From: a virus
Length of the DNA stretch: 21,231 nt
Strand: one strand, 5' to 3'
IMG/VR virus record: IMGVR_UViG_3300047481_001725
Location: 1-21,231 of that record
The notes under the pieces were generated by a model, which worked only from the letters and a program-made list of their open reading frames with translations, ran no database searches and had not been told where the DNA came from. Positions 4,779 through 20,411 of this stretch are shown piece after piece. Position 1 is the stretch's first letter; every line of letters begins with the position of its first letter. Made by a program: the position numbers and the translations under genes.

Positions 4779-5177
4779 GGGGCTGTCAAGGTATCGATTG
4801 GCAGGTGTGTTCTTTGAGATGATGCAGGCAGAGTTAGATGGAAACTCTTAAATTACCTATCACGCTATAAACGGCAAAACTATCAACTCTGAGGATATGA
4901 TGAGTATCCCAACTTCAATCACTTCACGTGTATTTGAAGCAGAAACTGAGCTTGCTTTAGCAGCATAGTTTCTAGAGGCCGGTGCACATACGCCTAGCAA
5001 CAGAAGTGCTTTGAACTGTTTTTGTAATTTGTACTTTAACAAATAGCCTACAATTTGATTGTTTAAGTAGCCTTATAAACACTCTAGTTTTGTTTCTTTT
5101 TACAAAAGGAACTAAGCCTGTGAATGAGTCCTTGGATTTGTCTGAGCAAGACGCGGGTTCGAGTCCCGCCAGCTCCA
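4779..5177 (+). ncRNA. ssrA: Transfer-messenger RNA (tmRNA)
   Basis: A complete tmRNA of about 399 nt. The acceptor stem pairs GGGGCTG (4779-4785) with CAGCTCC (5170-5176), including the G-U wobble at the third pair (4781 with 5174) that is the alanine identity element. The T-arm is canonical: GCGGG (5153-5157), TTCGAGT loop, CCCGC (5165-5169). The tRNA-like 5' part reads on through TCAAGGTATCGATTGGCAGG. A 6-bp hairpin (4830-4835 with 4843-4848) lies where pseudoknot 1 is expected. The coding part ends with GAG CTT GCT TTA GCA GCA TAG (ELALAA, stop), the classic tag end. CCA is not encoded (discriminator A5177 is followed by CGG). It would release stalled ribosomes and tag their products, using host SmpB and AlaRS. 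It is flanked by a leader hairpin and a terminator. Confidence 0.95.
4873..4968 (+). other. ssrA: tmRNA tag reading frame, apparently 31 codons
   Basis: The tag ends AETELALAA at the TAG of 4966-4968. In bacterial tmRNAs the resume codon lies about 90-96 nt from the 5' end. Here that position is occupied by GGC at 4873 (nt 95), in the same frame as the stop, and Gly (GGC/GGA) is the usual first tag residue in Bacteroidota. Reading from there gives GKTINSED at the start, a middle MMSIPTSITSRVF, and AETELALAA at the end: 31 residues. A normal-length 9-residue tag would have to resume at GCA 4939 (nt 161), far outside the usual position. Confidence 0.7.
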
Positions 5178-5193
5178 CGGAGCCAATGATGGG

Positions 5194-5272: not shown

Positions 5273-8119
5273 ATGGCATTAGTTAATTCCGGGTCAACCA
5301 ATCCGATTGTAACGGATCAAATAGTACAAGCTACACACGTTAAAAACCTACTAGATGCCTTAAATGGATCTGGCCAGTCTGACGTTATTATAACCGGCAG
5401 TTTAAACGGTACACCAGGTACCGCATCCTTTGTTGGTACAGCTTCTTGGGCGCTTAATGCAATACAAGCTACATCAGCATCTGTAGCTAATACAGCGTCG
5501 TATGTAACAAGTTCAAATGTATTTGGTCCTAATGGATCTAATTCAATATTATCAGCATCTTATGCGTTATCATCAAGTTATGCACTGAGCTCATCTTTTG
5601 CACAAACAGCTAGTTTTGTTATTAGTGCATCCTATGCACAAACAGCTAGCTTTGTTATATCCTCAAGCTACTCCCTAAGCTCATCTTTTGCTCAAACAGC
5701 TTCCTTTGTAGTATCAGCAAGCTTTGCAACTAGTGCATCAAGAGCACAAACAGCAAGTTTAGCGCTAACTGCATCGTTTGTAACAGCTTCTAATGTATTT
5801 GGTCCGCTTGGTGCAAGTTCAGTCAATAATGCACTTACTGCATCCTATGTTGATATAACATCATCACAAGCTCACGTAACTATATCCTACGCAGGATCAC
5901 AAATCACAGTGAGTGTTGATACCGGATCAGCTGGAACTGGTGCTGTTACATTAAGTGGTAATAATAATGAGTTTACATACATATCAAGTGCTACAACGAT
6001 CCAAGGAACTCCAAGTATGAGTTTCTCAGCAGGTACTGGTATAATTGCAACCGGATCTTTTAGAGGCAATCTAGCTGGTACAGCAAGTTGGGCTTCTAGT
6101 GCATCACAAGCGATTACTGCATCATACGTTAAGCAGGCCGAAACCGCGTCATATGTTCCAATAGTTGGACAAAATATAACTGTCAACTACACACCCACAG
6201 CCATTCAACTAACTGCATCGTTAGGCAATAGTAGCGGTGCAACAAATATACAACTAACTGGAAGTGATAATAATCAGATAGGCTTACTTTCTGGTAGTAC
6301 TCCGATAGGTACTGGATTGACAGTAAAATTTGCAACTTCATCATCAATAGCTGTTTCTGCTAGTTATGCTTTATCGAGTTCGTATGCAGTAAGTAGTTCT
6401 GTTGCAATATCAAGTTCATTTGCAACATCTGCTTCTTATGCCTTATCAGCAAGTTATGCACTGAGTTCATCCTTTGCACTTAAAGCAATTTCTGCTTCTT
6501 ATGCGGAAACTAGTTCACTATCAAATAGAGCATTAAGAGCTGATGACGCTGATCAGATAAAAATTAATGCTGCACCAGTTGTTGGTGGTGATAAATTTTT
6601 ATATTATGGTGATAATGCTACCGGCGATACAGATCTTTTTAGTGATAATGATTTAAGATATAATCCCGTTTTAAACACACTAACAGCACCCACTTTCAGT
6701 GGCACACTCACTGGTACTGCATCATACGCTATTAATGGAGGTGTAACTCAAATTATAGCAGGCACCAATGTTACAATATCCCCAGTTAATGGATTGGGTG
6801 CTGTGACAATAAATGCTACGGGTGGTCCTGGTGGTGGTGGTGGAGCAGATGATTTATCCGTTGTAGGTACAACAATACGATTAACCTCTGCAAGCAATCC
6901 AATAGGTAGTGCAATTACAGTACCATTTGCAACATCAGCTTCACACGCGGATACAGCTCTTTTAACAGCTTCTGTAAGTTCTAATACTATTACATTTACA
7001 AAAGGTAATAGTAATCAGTTTAGTTTAACAGTTGATACTGGATCTGGTGGTGGACCACCAACTACACCAGGTGGCGCCAACAAAACTATACAATTTAACG
7101 ATTCTACTACATTTAGCGGATCTAATAATTTTACATTCGATAAATCTACAAATCACGTAATTATAACTGGGTCGCTAATATCCTCAGGCAGTGTTAAATT
7201 CCCAGCACTTACAAACGTATCACAAGTAAATGCAGTTGTAATAGACACAGCAAGCGGTCAACTTTATTACTTACCAACTAGCTCCATCGGAGGAGGTGGT
7301 GGAGGTGGTGGAGATATCACTGGTGTAACTGCAGGTAATGGTATGTCTGGTGGAGGGGCTTCGGGAGATGTAACGCTTACGCTAGATACTGGTTCAACTC
7401 ACTTTACAACTGGTGTAGGTAAATTAGCTGGTGGATCTGATACTGAGATTCAGTTTAATAGTGGTTCAGTTGCTTTTAGTGGTTCAAGTAATTTTACTTT
7501 TGATTATATAAATAATAGAGCTAGATTAACTGGTTCATTGCTTGTTACAGGATCAACTACGTTGAGTGGTTCGTTTAATGTACACACTAATCAAAACAGC
7601 GATCAATCAATAAGTATAAGCAATATCAATAATGGATCTTCAGCATATACGATACTCACCATTAATGCAGGTAATGGTATCACAGGCTCTACGGCTGCAA
7701 TAGTGCCTTTACCTAAGGGTAGTACGGTTAATAACTACTTTGCCGGTGGCGTAAATTTTGCGGCATATCCAGGCGCGGTAGGTGATTCTGCTAGATCCAT
7801 AAAGCATATTAGTTCAATATTAAATACTGTTGGTCCAAGTAATTTTGAGTGGCATTATGCTACCACTTCCGTTCTTGGTGCATCAACTAAAAAGATGACC
7901 TTAGATGTACCATCAGGTGTATTATCTAACTCCGGAAGCATTGTAACATCAGGAAGCTTGACAATAGCAAGTGGATCAGCCAATACAGCAAACGACACTT
8001 CATTCTACTTTGGAAACAGTGGATCGAACGGAAGTTGGAGATTTAATCTTACAAACGGAACAATGTCTTTACAAGCGCATAATGGTTCTAGCTATATAAC
8101 TAAACAAGAATGGTCGTAA
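5273..8119 (+). CDS. Large repeat-rich tail fibre protein
   Basis: A 948-aa tail fibre or fibre-like structural protein. After a short N-terminal region (MALVNSGSTNPIVTDQIVQA), which likely docks to the tail, come two blocks of short degenerate repeats of the ASYALSSSFAQTASF type at about 48-175 and 355-415. Between and after them are beta-rich segments, including two copies of an IQFN...FSGSxNFTFD unit (about 605-635 and 725-752). Two Gly-rich hinges lie near residues 515-523 and 674-690, the latter followed by DITGVTAGNGMSGGG. The C-terminus (GSWRFNLTNGTMSLQAHNGS, then YITKQEWS) resembles phage fibre ends. Such Ala/Ser/Thr repeats are typical of trimeric phage fibres. It heads the fibre island and is followed 3 bases later by the next fibre gene. 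Confidence 0.85.
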   Translation: MALVNSGSTNPIVTDQIVQATHVKNLLDALNGSGQSDVIITGSLNGTPGTASFVGTASWALNAIQATSASVANTASYVTSSNVFGPNGSNSILSASYALSSSYALSSSFAQTASFVISASYAQTASFVISSSYSLSSSFAQTASFVVSASFATSASRAQTASLALTASFVTASNVFGPLGASSVNNALTASYVDITSSQAHVTISYAGSQITVSVDTGSAGTGAVTLSGNNNEFTYISSATTIQGTPSMSFSAGTGIIATGSFRGNLAGTASWASSASQAITASYVKQAETASYVPIVGQNITVNYTPTAIQLTASLGNSSGATNIQLTGSDNNQIGLLSGSTPIGTGLTVKFATSSSIAVSASYALSSSYAVSSSVAISSSFATSASYALSASYALSSSFALKAISASYAETSSLSNRALRADDADQIKINAAPVVGGDKFLYYGDNATGDTDLFSDNDLRYNPVLNTLTAPTFSGTLTGTASYAINGGVTQIIAGTNVTISPVNGLGAVTINATGGPGGGGGADDLSVVGTTIRLTSASNPIGSAITVPFATSASHADTALLTASVSSNTITFTKGNSNQFSLTVDTGSGGGPPTTPGGANKTIQFNDSTTFSGSNNFTFDKSTNHVIITGSLISSGSVKFPALTNVSQVNAVVIDTASGQLYYLPTSSIGGGGGGGGDITGVTAGNGMSGGGASGDVTLTLDTGSTHFTTGVGKLAGGSDTEIQFNSGSVAFSGSSNFTFDYINNRARLTGSLLVTGSTTLSGSFNVHTNQNSDQSISISNINNGSSAYTILTINAGNGITGSTAAIVPLPKGSTVNNYFAGGVNFAAYPGAVGDSARSIKHISSILNTVGPSNFEWHYATTSVLGASTKKMTLDVPSGVLSNSGSIVTSGSLTIASGSANTANDTSFYFGNSGSNGSWRFNLTNGTMSLQAHNGSSYITKQEWS
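5414..5790 (+). repeat. Tandem degenerate repeats, fibre block 1
   Basis: Near-repeated DNA units encode ASYALSSSFAQTASFVIS-type peptides. For example, CTCATCTTTTGCACAAACAG near 5590 recurs near 5682 with one change. The units are imperfect and vary in length, so this is a protein-coding repeat tract, not a satellite. Such tracts can change length by slippage or recombination. Confidence 0.7.
6331..6517 (+). repeat. Tandem degenerate repeats, fibre block 2
   Basis: A second tract inside the same gene encodes the same SASYALSSSYA-type units. It is separated from block 1 by about 540 bases of non-repetitive beta-rich coding sequence. Similarity to block 1 at DNA level offers a substrate for internal recombination. 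Confidence 0.65.
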
Positions 8120-8164: not shown

Positions 8165-9289
8165 AGCGAAGAAACTTCACTATCTAATGTATTAACATAT
8201 AATAGTGAAACGGGTCTTGTAGCATATACCGCATCGTCAGTTTTTGGAGGTAGTGCAGCTGCAGTTGGTAGTCAATATGAAATACAGTATAATAGTGATG
8301 GGGCTGGGGCATTTGGTGCTGACGTTGGGTTAACTTACAATCCTACGGATGTATCTTTAATAGTTGGAAGTAGAGGTAATATTGTAGCCGGTGGAGAGAC
8401 AGTGTTTCTTGTTGGTGAAAATCTAACTAATAGAGGTGAAAGTTCTATACTCGCTGGTAATAATAGTATTACCGAACCAGACGCCATATACAGTATAGCT
8501 GTAGGTGATACAGTGACCGCTGGTGGATATGCAACCATTGCTACTGGTGTTAATACAACTGTATATGGATCTGGATCTGCTGCATTTGGAATCTCCAATG
8601 TTATAAATGGAAGTGCATCACTATCCACAGGCGAAAGCAATCAAGTGAATGGAAATGGATCAATTGTTGTAGGTAGTTCAAATGTAGTAGATGCATCTAA
8701 TTCGGCTGTATTTGGTTTTAATAATACGGCTGTTGACGGTTTTTCAAATTTAATTATTGGATCTGGCAGCACAACTACAGCAGCTTCGGCCTATTCGCTT
8801 GTTGTAGGTATTAATAATGGCATTACAAACTTTTCATCACTAACTGTTGGTCAAAATAATCAAAATTCTGGATCTAGTACTTTAGTTGTTGGTAATAATA
8901 ATAGAATGACAAATGCTACAGCAGTTGCAATAGGCAGTAACCACTTTTCAACACAAGCTAATAGCTATTTAATAGGTTTTTATTTAAGTGCATCATCACA
9001 GTTTCAAACATTTGTCGGCAAATACAATCTCGCCACAAATACTCCAGATGGAGCTCCACAAGGTTTATTATTTGGAGTGGGTGGTGGTGTCGATGTGTCT
9101 GGCAGAAAGACAGTATTTGCAATTACTGTGGATAATAACCAATCTGGTAGTATGCGCATACCACACAATCCAAGCGATCCAAATGGTGCTAATAATACAC
9201 TTACGACTGGATCTATGTATTATGATACTACTAATAATAGAATTAGAATATGGAATGGTACCGCTTGGAGAACCGTTACAACAACTTAA
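8123..9289 (+). CDS. Tail fibre with YadA-head-like beta-roll
   Basis: A 388-aa fibre. Residues 1-45 (MATKIVGNLILS to about YTASSVFGG) are a module shared with the next gene. Residues 52-75 carry an IQYN...FGADVGLTYNP unit related to those in the 948-aa fibre. Residues about 78-300 form some 14 repeats of about 14 residues with the pattern S-x-A/V-V-G-x-x-N (for example SIAVGDTVTAGG, GSAAFGISNVING, SAVFGFNNTAVDG, STLVVGNNNRMTN). This is the hallmark of the left-handed beta-roll head of trimeric YadA-like adhesins. The C-terminus (MYYDTTNNRIRIWNGTAW) is typical of phage receptor-binding fibres. It likely trimerises and contacts the host surface. It starts 3 bases after the previous stop. Confidence 0.85.
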   Translation: MATKIVGNLILSQSSEETSLSNVLTYNSETGLVAYTASSVFGGSAAAVGSQYEIQYNSDGAGAFGADVGLTYNPTDVSLIVGSRGNIVAGGETVFLVGENLTNRGESSILAGNNSITEPDAIYSIAVGDTVTAGGYATIATGVNTTVYGSGSAAFGISNVINGSASLSTGESNQVNGNGSIVVGSSNVVDASNSAVFGFNNTAVDGFSNLIIGSGSTTTAASAYSLVVGINNGITNFSSLTVGQNNQNSGSSTLVVGNNNRMTNATAVAIGSNHFSTQANSYLIGFYLSASSQFQTFVGKYNLATNTPDGAPQGLLFGVGGGVDVSGRKTVFAITVDNNQSGSMRIPHNPSDPNGANNTLTTGSMYYDTTNNRIRIWNGTAWRTVTTT

Positions 9290-17465: not shown

Positions 17466-18908
17466 ATGGCAACAACTTATACCTACCAAACTATATACGA
17501 GCGAGTTCAAGCTAATGGAGCGTTGAATCCAATGAATTCATCGGCTGGAGGTGTAGACGGTGGTAGCATGCAGTTTCAAATACAGCAGCTACAACCAATT
17601 GACTTTCCAATGAAAGATCTTGACTATGAGTCAACGTTTGTATCTACTCAACAAGATATAACCAAAGTACTATCAATCACTCAAGATTCTGTAGGATTCA
17701 CAAATACGTATGTTAATTCACCACAAATATTAATAAACTCCGATAGAGTAATTATTAATACTAAAAAAGACTATTTGATGTTATTTGGTGGAGCGGGTGT
17801 AGCAATATCATCTCAAAATCCAGTGAATATTGATTCTGATTCAAGTGCAACAATAGCAGCTACCGAAGGAATATATTTAGGAGTACCAAATAAAGGAGTT
17901 GAAGCATGGCCAAAAATTCAAAAACCTAAAACAAAAGGTGATCCAACACCAGATCAAGCTTACGAACCATTAACACTTGGCATAAAATTAGCAAACTTAT
18001 TAGAGGATCTGCTAGTAATACTTAAAAATGCAAGAATTGCAACACCAGCAGGGCTAGCTTATTTCAGAGAAGACGCACAATACGATTTAGCAAATATACA
18101 AGCTAGAATTCCAGAAATGCTAAGTACGGCTGTGTTTATTGATGGGGTAAGTCACGAGTCAACAGATCCAGCACCTAGTCCACCAACAACAATTACAAAT
18201 CCTACGGGGATAATCATAGGCTCTGGAGGATCCTTTGGTGGTGGTGGAGGAGGATTTGGTGGTGGAGCATTACCAAAACAAGCAATAACAGCAGCCGATA
18301 AGGATTATAGTACCGTAGTTGCAACAGTAATTGATAAATTAGAAGGAGGCTATTGGAGTGATGCATGGTTCAGTAATCCAACGTTGGCTAAAGCAGCTGG
18401 TTGGCCATACGATCGTAGATATGGAAGTAGTGGAGAAACGATGTTTGGTATCGATAGAAAAGCTGGCGGATCAATCAATACAACAACCGCAGGTAAGCAG
18501 TTTTGGGCATTAATTGATGGAGCAAATGCATCAACTACGTGGAAGTGGGGATATCGCGGTGGTCCATTAGAAGCGCAGCTACGAGAATTAGCCGGCCAGA
18601 TAATATATCCAACTTATGATCGTAACGCAAAAAATTACCTATCAGCACAATCCAGACAGATAGTAGAGAGTGATGGTCGACTTTATTTTAATTTCGTATA
18701 TGCTTGTTGGAATGGACCTGGTTGGTTTCAAAGATTTGCACAAACATTTAATCAAGCAGTTGCAAGAGGTGTAACTGATCCAAATCAATTAGCCAAAGTT
18801 GTTATAGATCGCAGAATGAATGTTGGATACAATCCTGGATCAGCACCAAACTCTTTAGTAAGACAAGGAGCATTCAAAATCGCAGCATTAATAGGAGTAC
18901 CAGTCTAA
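17466..18908 (+). CDS. Baseplate spike protein fused to an EGGY-type peptidoglycan hydrolase
   Basis: A 480-aa two-part protein. Residues 1-245 (MATTYTYQTIYERVQANGAL; QLQPIDFPMKDLDYESTF; INTKKDYLMLFGGAGVAISS; ATEGIYLGVPN) are a gp5-like spike/beta-helix region: the short strands with repeated I/V-N-S/D steps at about 75-140 suit a trimeric needle. A Gly-rich hinge follows (253-267). Residues 275-480 form a hydrolase-like domain with KLEGGYWSD (E293 in the EGGY position used as catalytic Glu by related muramidases) and SGETMFGIDRKAGG (322-335). FNFVYACWNGPGWFQRF fits a lysozyme-like helical core. It probably degrades the cell wall as the tail contracts. The N-terminal half is duplicated in the next gene. 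Confidence 0.78.
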   Translation: MATTYTYQTIYERVQANGALNPMNSSAGGVDGGSMQFQIQQLQPIDFPMKDLDYESTFVSTQQDITKVLSITQDSVGFTNTYVNSPQILINSDRVIINTKKDYLMLFGGAGVAISSQNPVNIDSDSSATIAATEGIYLGVPNKGVEAWPKIQKPKTKGDPTPDQAYEPLTLGIKLANLLEDLLVILKNARIATPAGLAYFREDAQYDLANIQARIPEMLSTAVFIDGVSHESTDPAPSPPTTITNPTGIIIGSGGSFGGGGGGFGGGALPKQAITAADKDYSTVVATVIDKLEGGYWSDAWFSNPTLAKAAGWPYDRRYGSSGETMFGIDRKAGGSINTTTAGKQFWALIDGANASTTWKWGYRGGPLEAQLRELAGQIIYPTYDRNAKNYLSAQSRQIVESDGRLYFNFVYACWNGPGWFQRFAQTFNQAVARGVTDPNQLAKVVIDRRMNVGYNPGSAPNSLVRQGAFKIAALIGVPV

Positions 18909-18920
18909 CAGGTTTAATTA

Positions 18921-20411
18921 ATGGCTACAACCTACACATATCAAGACATACTTAAAAGAGTTGAATCTAATGGTGCTTTAAATCCAATGTCAAGCGCAGG
19001 AGAACAAGGCACAGCTCAATTCCAAATCCCACAACTACAGCCGATTGATTTCCCAATGAAGGATCTTGACTATGAGTCAACTTTCAAAATAACGGAACAG
19101 GATATAACTAAGGTTTTAGCAATAACGAAGGATAGTGTAGGTTTTACAAATATTGTCAAAACTATTCCACAAATTTTATTAAACTCCAATAGAATTACTA
19201 TAAATTCAAAGAGGGATTATTTAATGTTGTTTGGTAAAGCTGGTGTATCAATATCATCTGGCAATGCTGTAAACTTAGACTCTGACTCAAGTACAACACT
19301 GGCAGCAAAGGATGGTGTTTATTTAGGAGTACCTAATAATGGCCAACCAATTGCAAAGGAAACAAAAAAACCTAAAACAAAAGGAGATCCAACTCCGGAT
19401 CAACCATACGAACCACTCGTATTAGGAATAAAAGCAGCGAATATAATAGAAGATTTATTAGTAGTAATAAAGAATGCTCGAATAGTAACTCCAGTTGGAT
19501 TAGGTTATTTTAGAGAAGACGCACAATATGACCTAGCTAATTTACAAGCTAGATTACCTGAAATACTGAGTACATCTACATTTATCGATGGAGTAAGTCA
19601 CGAATCAACTGATAAACCACCTGATCCACCAGCAACAATCACAAATACAACTGGCACATTTACTGGCATACTATCTGGAGGATCCTTTGGTGGCGGTGGT
19701 GGCTTTACTGGTGGAGGTGGAAATGATGCGGCAATACCACCTATGTCAAATCAAGACATAACACCTATGCGGAAAGCTATTATAGATGTAGCATATAGCT
19801 TTTACGCAAATCCAGATAGATTATCAGAAAATCCAGCAGATAACTTAGGATGGGCAAACCCTACATTCCAAAATAACATGAGTGTCGTTGGATGGCGGCA
19901 AGGATCTGCATGGTGTAATTTCTTCACAAACTTGGTCTGGAAACAAGCATATGATAAAGTATCTGCTACCGATCAAGAAATAGCAAAATTATATAAGCAG
20001 TATCTAAAAAGTTCGGTATATGGTGTTTTAAGCGGTAATGTGTTTGCAACACTAACTAACGCGATAAAAGGTGGGTTTGGAAAGAGATTAAACGGTATAT
20101 CGTATAAGGATCCGGTATTTTATGATTATGTAAGACCTGGTGATATGATTGTATATACTAAAGGCCACATAAACATAGCGTACTCTGTTGATTATACTAA
20201 TTATAAAATTAATACAATTGGAGGAAATGAGGGAAACCAGGTAAAATATTATACACCATTTAACTGGGGAGGCTATACAGTTGATGGGATTGTAAGAGTT
20301 GTAGAACCACTATTATTTAGTTCACCACAAGTTACACCAACAAACAGAGCTGCTAGTCCTAGAGCGAACACAAATGAAAAAGATGCAGGAAAACCACCGA
20401 CAGTACGATAA
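18921..20411 (+). CDS. Baseplate spike protein fused to a CHAP/NlpC-like peptidase-amidase
   Basis: A 496-aa paralogue of the previous gene over residues 1-265 (MATTYTYQDILKRVESNGAL; QLQPIDFPMKDLDYESTF; INSKRDYLMLFGKAGVSISS; DGVYLGVPN), with the same Gly-rich hinge (253-267). The C-terminal domain is different: GSAWCNFFTNLVWKQAY gives a candidate nucleophile C332, PGDMIVYTKGHINIAYSVD gives H416, and TIGGNEGNQV gives a third polar position (N436/E437). This C...H...N order matches CHAP/NlpC-P60-type cysteine hydrolases that cut peptide or amide bonds in peptidoglycan. A Pro/Ala/Lys-rich tail ends the protein. It is likely a second spike component that attacks the stem peptide while its paralogue attacks the glycan. 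Confidence 0.78.
   Translation: MATTYTYQDILKRVESNGALNPMSSAGEQGTAQFQIPQLQPIDFPMKDLDYESTFKITEQDITKVLAITKDSVGFTNIVKTIPQILLNSNRITINSKRDYLMLFGKAGVSISSGNAVNLDSDSSTTLAAKDGVYLGVPNNGQPIAKETKKPKTKGDPTPDQPYEPLVLGIKAANIIEDLLVVIKNARIVTPVGLGYFREDAQYDLANLQARLPEILSTSTFIDGVSHESTDKPPDPPATITNTTGTFTGILSGGSFGGGGGFTGGGGNDAAIPPMSNQDITPMRKAIIDVAYSFYANPDRLSENPADNLGWANPTFQNNMSVVGWRQGSAWCNFFTNLVWKQAYDKVSATDQEIAKLYKQYLKSSVYGVLSGNVFATLTNAIKGGFGKRLNGISYKDPVFYDYVRPGDMIVYTKGHINIAYSVDYTNYKINTIGGNEGNQVKYYTPFNWGGYTVDGIVRVVEPLLFSSPQVTPTNRAASPRANTNEKDAGKPPTVR

Follow-up and report, generated by a model that had tools for sequence, protein, structure and literature searches.

In trans-translation, an alanine-charged tmRNA enters the ribosome in an SmpB-dependent manner and adds a peptide tag, the hydrophobic end of which is recognized by ClpXP. 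Signals beyond the last residues have a precedent in the binding of SspB to Escherichia coli tags (PMC8138137), and the 27-residue ssrA tag of Mesoplasma florum (AANKNEENTNEVPTFMLNAGQANYAFA), which that species' Lon reads (PMC9097571), makes clear that long tags can address a protease other than ClpXP. Phage-borne tmRNAs are known from mycobacteriophages and Bacillus phage G (PMC4131195) and have been reported in huge phages (PMC7162821), sometimes with an SmpB gene besides the tmRNA (PMC4131195, PMC7162821); in mycobacteriophage Wildcat, the tmRNA ranks among the lytic genes with the highest expression (PMC7474061). The passages on phage tmRNAs in PMC4131195 and PMC7162821 describe no long conserved tags or tag families, nor did searches of the open literature yield a published description of such tags. 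Tags annotated in named phages are short (ANSKFAFALAA in Streptomyces, AADVAADYAAVGA in Mycobacterium). Mycobacteriophage Bxz1 reportedly may have a tag of ∼25 residues. Why phages carry a tmRNA at all is not settled.

Here we analyze a tmRNA gene in a 21,231-nt stretch of viral DNA (IMG/VR record IMGVR_UViG_3300047481_001725; hereafter, the window), the parts of which are listed in Table 1. ARAGORN makes a single tmRNA call at 4779 to 5178 (+), with the tag-coding part at nt 95 to 190 (31 codons), and the RNA matches the Rfam family of bacterial ssrA tmRNA, RF00023, over its full length of 1 to 374 (76.3 bits against a cut-off of 47; E = 2.4e-28). This continuous match on one strand rules out a two-piece (permuted) tmRNA. 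With bacterial ssrA tmRNA the window shares the one-piece architecture, the G3-U acceptor pair, the T arm, the resume position, and the hydrophobic tag end; membership in RF00023 is indicated by a score above the curated cut-off, a tRNA-like acceptor with G3-U70 and T arm, and a resume codon around nt 90 to 100 followed by an open frame to a hydrophobic end and a stop. The 3′ CCA is not encoded, ACGG directly following the acceptor strand. Posterior probability is low in the middle of the alignment; the model itself encodes no pseudoknots, and minimum free energy folding cannot show any. The GGC at nt 95, put forward as resume codon in the preliminary description of this DNA, is also the one ARAGORN selects and lies inside the bacterial control range (nt 91 to 102); from there to the ALAA and its TAG at 4966 to 4968, the frame is open for 31 codons, just as described. 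Separately, in a crAss-like phage (Bohxovirus, PV686213), Rfam matches a permuted (two-piece) tmRNA (L004:2975-3164; 70.6 bits) for which the record bears no annotation.

Table 1. Features of the tmRNA gene in the window and tags of the six long-tag families
Feature	Position	Strand	Basis
One-piece tmRNA gene	4779..5180	+	ARAGORN, Rfam RF00023, sequence
Acceptor stem, 5′ strand GGGGCUG	4779..4785	+	Sequence, Rfam alignment
G3 opposite U in acceptor stem, alanine identity pair (G3-U70)	4781, 5174	+	Sequence, Rfam alignment
Resume codon GGC (Gly), RNA nt 95	4873..4875	+	ARAGORN; control tmRNA positions 91-102
Tag reading frame GKTINSEDMMSIPTSITSRVFEAETELALAA, 31 codons	4873..4965	+	ARAGORN, translation; frame kept in relatives
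Conserved core module NSEDMMSIPTSIT, tag family F	4885..4923	+	Pattern scans, alignment; pN/pS 0.20 for EDMMSIPTSIT
Possible small hairpin GGATA-TGATGAG-TATCC within tag frame	4893..4909	+	Not supported as a conserved element
Hydrophobic tag end ALAA (ClpXP type)	4954..4965	+	Sequence; established ssrA-tag knowledge
Tag stop codon TAG	4966..4968	+	Sequence
T arm GCGGG-TTCGAGT-CCCGC	5153..5169	+	Sequence, Rfam alignment
Acceptor stem, 3′ strand CAGCUCC, and discriminator A	5170..5177	+	Sequence
Family A tag, xELSTMTFEDAMAFVGADYAVAA			
Family B tag, ANDNVDMAPSLAEADEILAKFGW...			
Family C tag, GNTNFWSLVNAGVSTPVTEELLAA			
Family D tag, ...RVAEGEAILASIFGEVAIAA			
Family E tag, ...VELSEYTIDSLLAELSGAELELA			
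Family F tag, that of the window, with core NSEDMMSIPTSIT			

The tag of 31 residues with a central conserved module sets the window apart from bacterial ssrA tmRNA: in a chromosomal control analyzed with the same program (Planctomycetota, standing in for Bacteroidota), tags had 8 to 13 residues (median 9) and no such module, with the resume codon at nt 91 to 102 in 28 of 29 tmRNAs and one outlier at 150. As a tag-blind viral sample, we used a generic tmRNA 3′ motif outside the tag, found at at least 120 loci in viral contigs; among the matches listed, 103 tags were resolved, 65 by ARAGORN and 38 by re-reading the frame. Of the 82 distinct tags among these listed matches, 64 had 21 to 35 residues, 18 had 8 to 14, and none had 15 to 20; with ARAGORN calls only, again among the matches listed, 44 of 65 tags fell between 21 and 35. 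The length that was at first considered unusual is therefore so with respect to bacteria, whereas it is the usual one among the viral tmRNAs sampled. Among the matches listed, most tags sampled retain a hydrophobic signal of the LAA/VAA type at their end. The M. florum tag is of similar length, but it is chromosomal and ends in YAFA, whereas the viral tags fall into several modular families and mostly end in LAA. A mollicute-type, Lon-directed tag was rejected for the window, since its tag ends in ALAA and shows no evident similarity to that of M. florum by eye beyond a Pro-Thr. On the technical side, ARAGORN trimmed long tags to 7 to 22 residues at ten viral loci, placing the resume codon at nt 130 to 165 (L008, L013, L023, L055, L097, L120, L122, L134, L135, and L149). 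Phage tag annotation is thus probably often wrong, the standard gene finder frequently shortening the tag.

A sensitive search of named phages returned a 35-nt match inside the tag, located in the 735-kb phage LR756501, which has its own tmRNA at the matching site with the tag GDYKMNAEDMMSIPTSLTGKVATESFVEDLVLA. A degenerate E-D-M-M-S-I-P-T pattern matched 15 times in 2.9 million viral contigs, every time in a tmRNA tag frame, and three looser scans of viral contigs added L023 (SILTS), L036, L038, L040, and L042 (SLPTS), and L122 (EDIMSIPTS). Together, the viral contigs and named phages scanned thereby yielded 22 more tmRNAs carrying the core (Y)N-S-E-D-M-M-S-[I/L]-P-T-S, referred to here as family F. 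By comparison, 84,980 bacterial and archaeal species held three matches to the core pattern, none of them in a tmRNA. Searching the named phages in protein mode with four tag families brought up no more than LR756501 and its twin LR756503, both through the window's own tag alone. The RF00023 cut-off was passed by 17 of 18 family F members scanned, the exception (L011) being truncated. Tag lengths in the family range from 28 to 33 residues and always differ by whole codons, the tag of L011 having 28 residues; TAAAC or TAAAT before the resume codon (GGC 4873 in the window) is a context common to the members. The LALAA end, described as conserved, is kept in the window but altered or lost in five core-bearing relatives (L014, ...MELV; L003, ...LVLA; L011, ...EEVA; L012, ...LEVA; L036, ...LELA).

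Several other scan matches were discarded: an exact 17-mer in coding DNA (L002), matches in bacterial or archaeal metagenome-assembled genomes outside any tmRNA (L020-L022), and others put down to chance (L024-L030, L031-L035, L037, L039, and L041), as probably was an EDMMSLPTS within a long protein frame of another viral contig (L043, reverse strand, ∼8908-8930). Two family F tmRNAs are interrupted, apparently in the T loop, by a group I intron (L003:3250-3481 and L005:7609-7837, minus strand), and ARAGORN misses both.

On its own, an open frame of 31 codons is not significant, having a chance of ∼0.2 at equal base use by simple arithmetic; it gains significance from the 22 other tmRNAs with the core in the same frame, the whole-codon length differences, and an excess of synonymous changes. 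A comparison of tag frames among relatives, proposed at the outset as a check, bore out the long frame, with zero frameshifting differences upstream and with synonymous changes across those codons (GAG/GAA, GAT/GAC, and AGT/TCT/AGC/TCC). Divergent members spell the same peptide with other codons, among them serine codons changed at two bases (AGT to TCT or TCC), and the core is recoded synonymously in L019 (GAAGACATGATGTCT) and L040 (GAGGACATGATGTCCTTA). With a pN/pS of 0.20 for the 11-codon core (EDMMSIPTSIT) versus 0.66 for the last nine codons, the core appears more constrained than the degradation end, a core value that is biased downwards because members were found and grouped partly by peptide motif, so that part of the conservation at motif positions follows from how members were chosen. 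Less affected by this bias is the comparison of frames within families: pN/pS was 0.34 to 0.58 in frame for six tag families and 0.8 to 1.7 in shifted frames for the five with enough same-length sequences. Given a frame that remains open despite differing tag lengths, the excess of synonymous changes, and the absence of the core from the bacterial tmRNAs scanned, translation most likely covers the whole tag, from GGC 4873 to the TAG.

The same data bear on two other ways of reading the frame. Were the true tag short, translation would resume near the alternative codon GCA at 4939 to give AETELALAA, and the upstream stretch would be structural RNA, open by accident. ARAGORN does pick short tags for the relatives L008, L013, and L023 (EEAELLLAA), yet resumption at 4939 means nt 161, outside the 91 to 102 seen in all but one control tmRNA; moreover, the TAAAC/TAAAT context precedes GGC 4873, and nowhere in the gene is peptide-level selection stronger than in the codons upstream of 4939. 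We consider a short tag very improbable. Still harder to credit is that the RNA also encodes a free peptide, MSIPTSIT...ALAA. This would start at an in-frame ATG (4900) that lies five bases behind a Shine-Dalgarno-like GAGG (GAGGATATGATG), but the element is weaker in L019 (GAAG), the second-last core Met codon is the sole ATG remaining in L122, and families B to E do not have the GAGG-N5-ATG arrangement. In addition, Bacteroidota, the likely hosts, make little use of Shine-Dalgarno sequences.

A different question is what the core is kept for. The long tag might be translated while the core is retained for an RNA reason (hairpin, antisense or protein-binding site, or homing-endonuclease site), with the extra residues merely lengthening the tag. 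Consistent with this, GAGGATATGATGAGTATCC is near-invariant, a single loop change aside, in 13 of 16 distinct 33-nt cores, and a local hairpin is predicted in the members folded; the near identity of core nucleotides in most members suggests either an added RNA-level constraint or recent spread. However, the small hairpin noted earlier, while present in the letters (GGATA at 4893-4897, TATCC at 4905-4909), does not seem to be a conserved RNA element: its energy is weak (z = −1.1), 15 distinct cores showed no covariation, and divergent members break its pairs in register with no compensating change while preserving the peptide by different codons. The hairpin is thus not supported as the cause of core conservation, and with other families showing the same in-frame selection on different sequences, an RNA reason of any kind seems quite unlikely. 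Unlikely, too, is that the module protects or redirects rather than signals degradation, such that tagged proteins are sequestered or a host protease is kept occupied, as counter-defense or takeover. The altered ends of L003, L014, L011, and L012 and the weaker constraint on the last nine codons would fit this idea; against it, most tags keep a hydrophobic LAA/VAA-type end.

At least six families of long tags can be told apart by their different conserved cores (Table 1). A scan with the family A core found at least 120 loci, of which the 118 readable as far as a stop all end 16 to 18 codons on, none inside a longer protein; among the matches listed, at least 99 of these loci have the tmRNA 3′ motif. 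In the 636-kb phage LR756504, the tmRNA (L049:1501-1857, minus strand) has a tag of a different kind, of 24 residues, DNVNSFEQSILNELFAPVEMAVAA, as read from the alignment. In the tmRNAs of L013 (family F) and L135 (family A), the 98 nt ahead of the tag share 90% identity and the final 118 nt share 81%, whereas the tag frames are unrelated and alignment is poor across the pseudoknot region that separates tag and 3′ domain. The two phages are related, with flanking genes mostly 69 to 78% identical, and neighboring genes are shared across families A, C, and F. Judging from these sequences, tag modules are swapped between related phages on one tmRNA scaffold, since unrelated tags sit on nearly the same scaffold in related phages. 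We found no amphipathic helix shared across families, the hydrophobic moment against shuffles not being significant for 15 of the 16 tags tested; AlphaFold2 predicts the window's tag, at low confidence (pLDDT 66), with an extended core and residues 16 to 30 helical.

The best explanation, to which we assign a probability of about 0.62, is a phage tmRNA with a bipartite 31-residue tag, belonging to one of at least six modular, exchanged long-tag families. Charged with alanine, this RNA would enter stalled ribosomes in the infected cell, where translation would resume at GGC 4873, add the 31-residue tag, and be released at TAG 4966. A partner, be it a protease, an adaptor, or a phage protein, would recognize the phage-specific central module NSEDMMSIPTSIT in its peptide form, and the hydrophobic ALAA belongs to the type that ClpXP reads. 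That the extra residues provide a new fate or adaptor site, as the preliminary description proposed, is plausible and in keeping with peptide-level selection. SmpB may come from the host or, in LR756501, from the phage itself: that genome encodes one, and none was found in 20 fragmentary relatives, for which supply by the host is expected. The host of the window's phage is probably a member of the Bacteroidota, given that PMC7162821 assigns huge phages of >634 kb to Bacteroidetes.

A partner gene was not found in these records, most of which are fragments, with SmpB confined to LR756501 and ClpP-like genes to G005 and G011. Conserved neighbors were dismissed as partners, given that the structural, replication, and HD-domain genes around the tmRNA follow phage lineages and none is tag-specific. 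The ClpP-like proteases (L045 and L046, in the long phage records G011 and G005) occur in two phages with a family F tag and could be capsid proteases or tag partners.

Whether the idea extends further we regard as an even bet, namely, that in many uncultivated phages modular extended tags dock stalled, truncated proteins on a specific phage or host adaptor or protease, the virus thereby reprogramming trans-translation, with modules being swapped as hosts and partners change. Should most tmRNAs of phages append long tags that are family-specific and conserved as peptides, the viral copy would be no spare of the host gene but would alter the fate of stalled proteins. The modules, placed on reporters, would then offer an experimental handle and possibly a source of orthogonal degradation tags, and tags shortened by the standard gene finder stand as a warning for annotation.

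Two further observations concern other genes of the window. Directly downstream of the tmRNA, positions 5273 to 8119 encode a 948-residue protein with many SASYALSSS/TASFV-type repeats and no Pfam or PHROG match. Farther along, two adjacent proteins (17466-18908 and 18921-20411) are nearly the same in their N-terminal halves but differ in their C-terminal domains; TIGR02594 weakly matches the second, and the pair likely represents tail or lysis proteins that arose by duplication and domain replacement.
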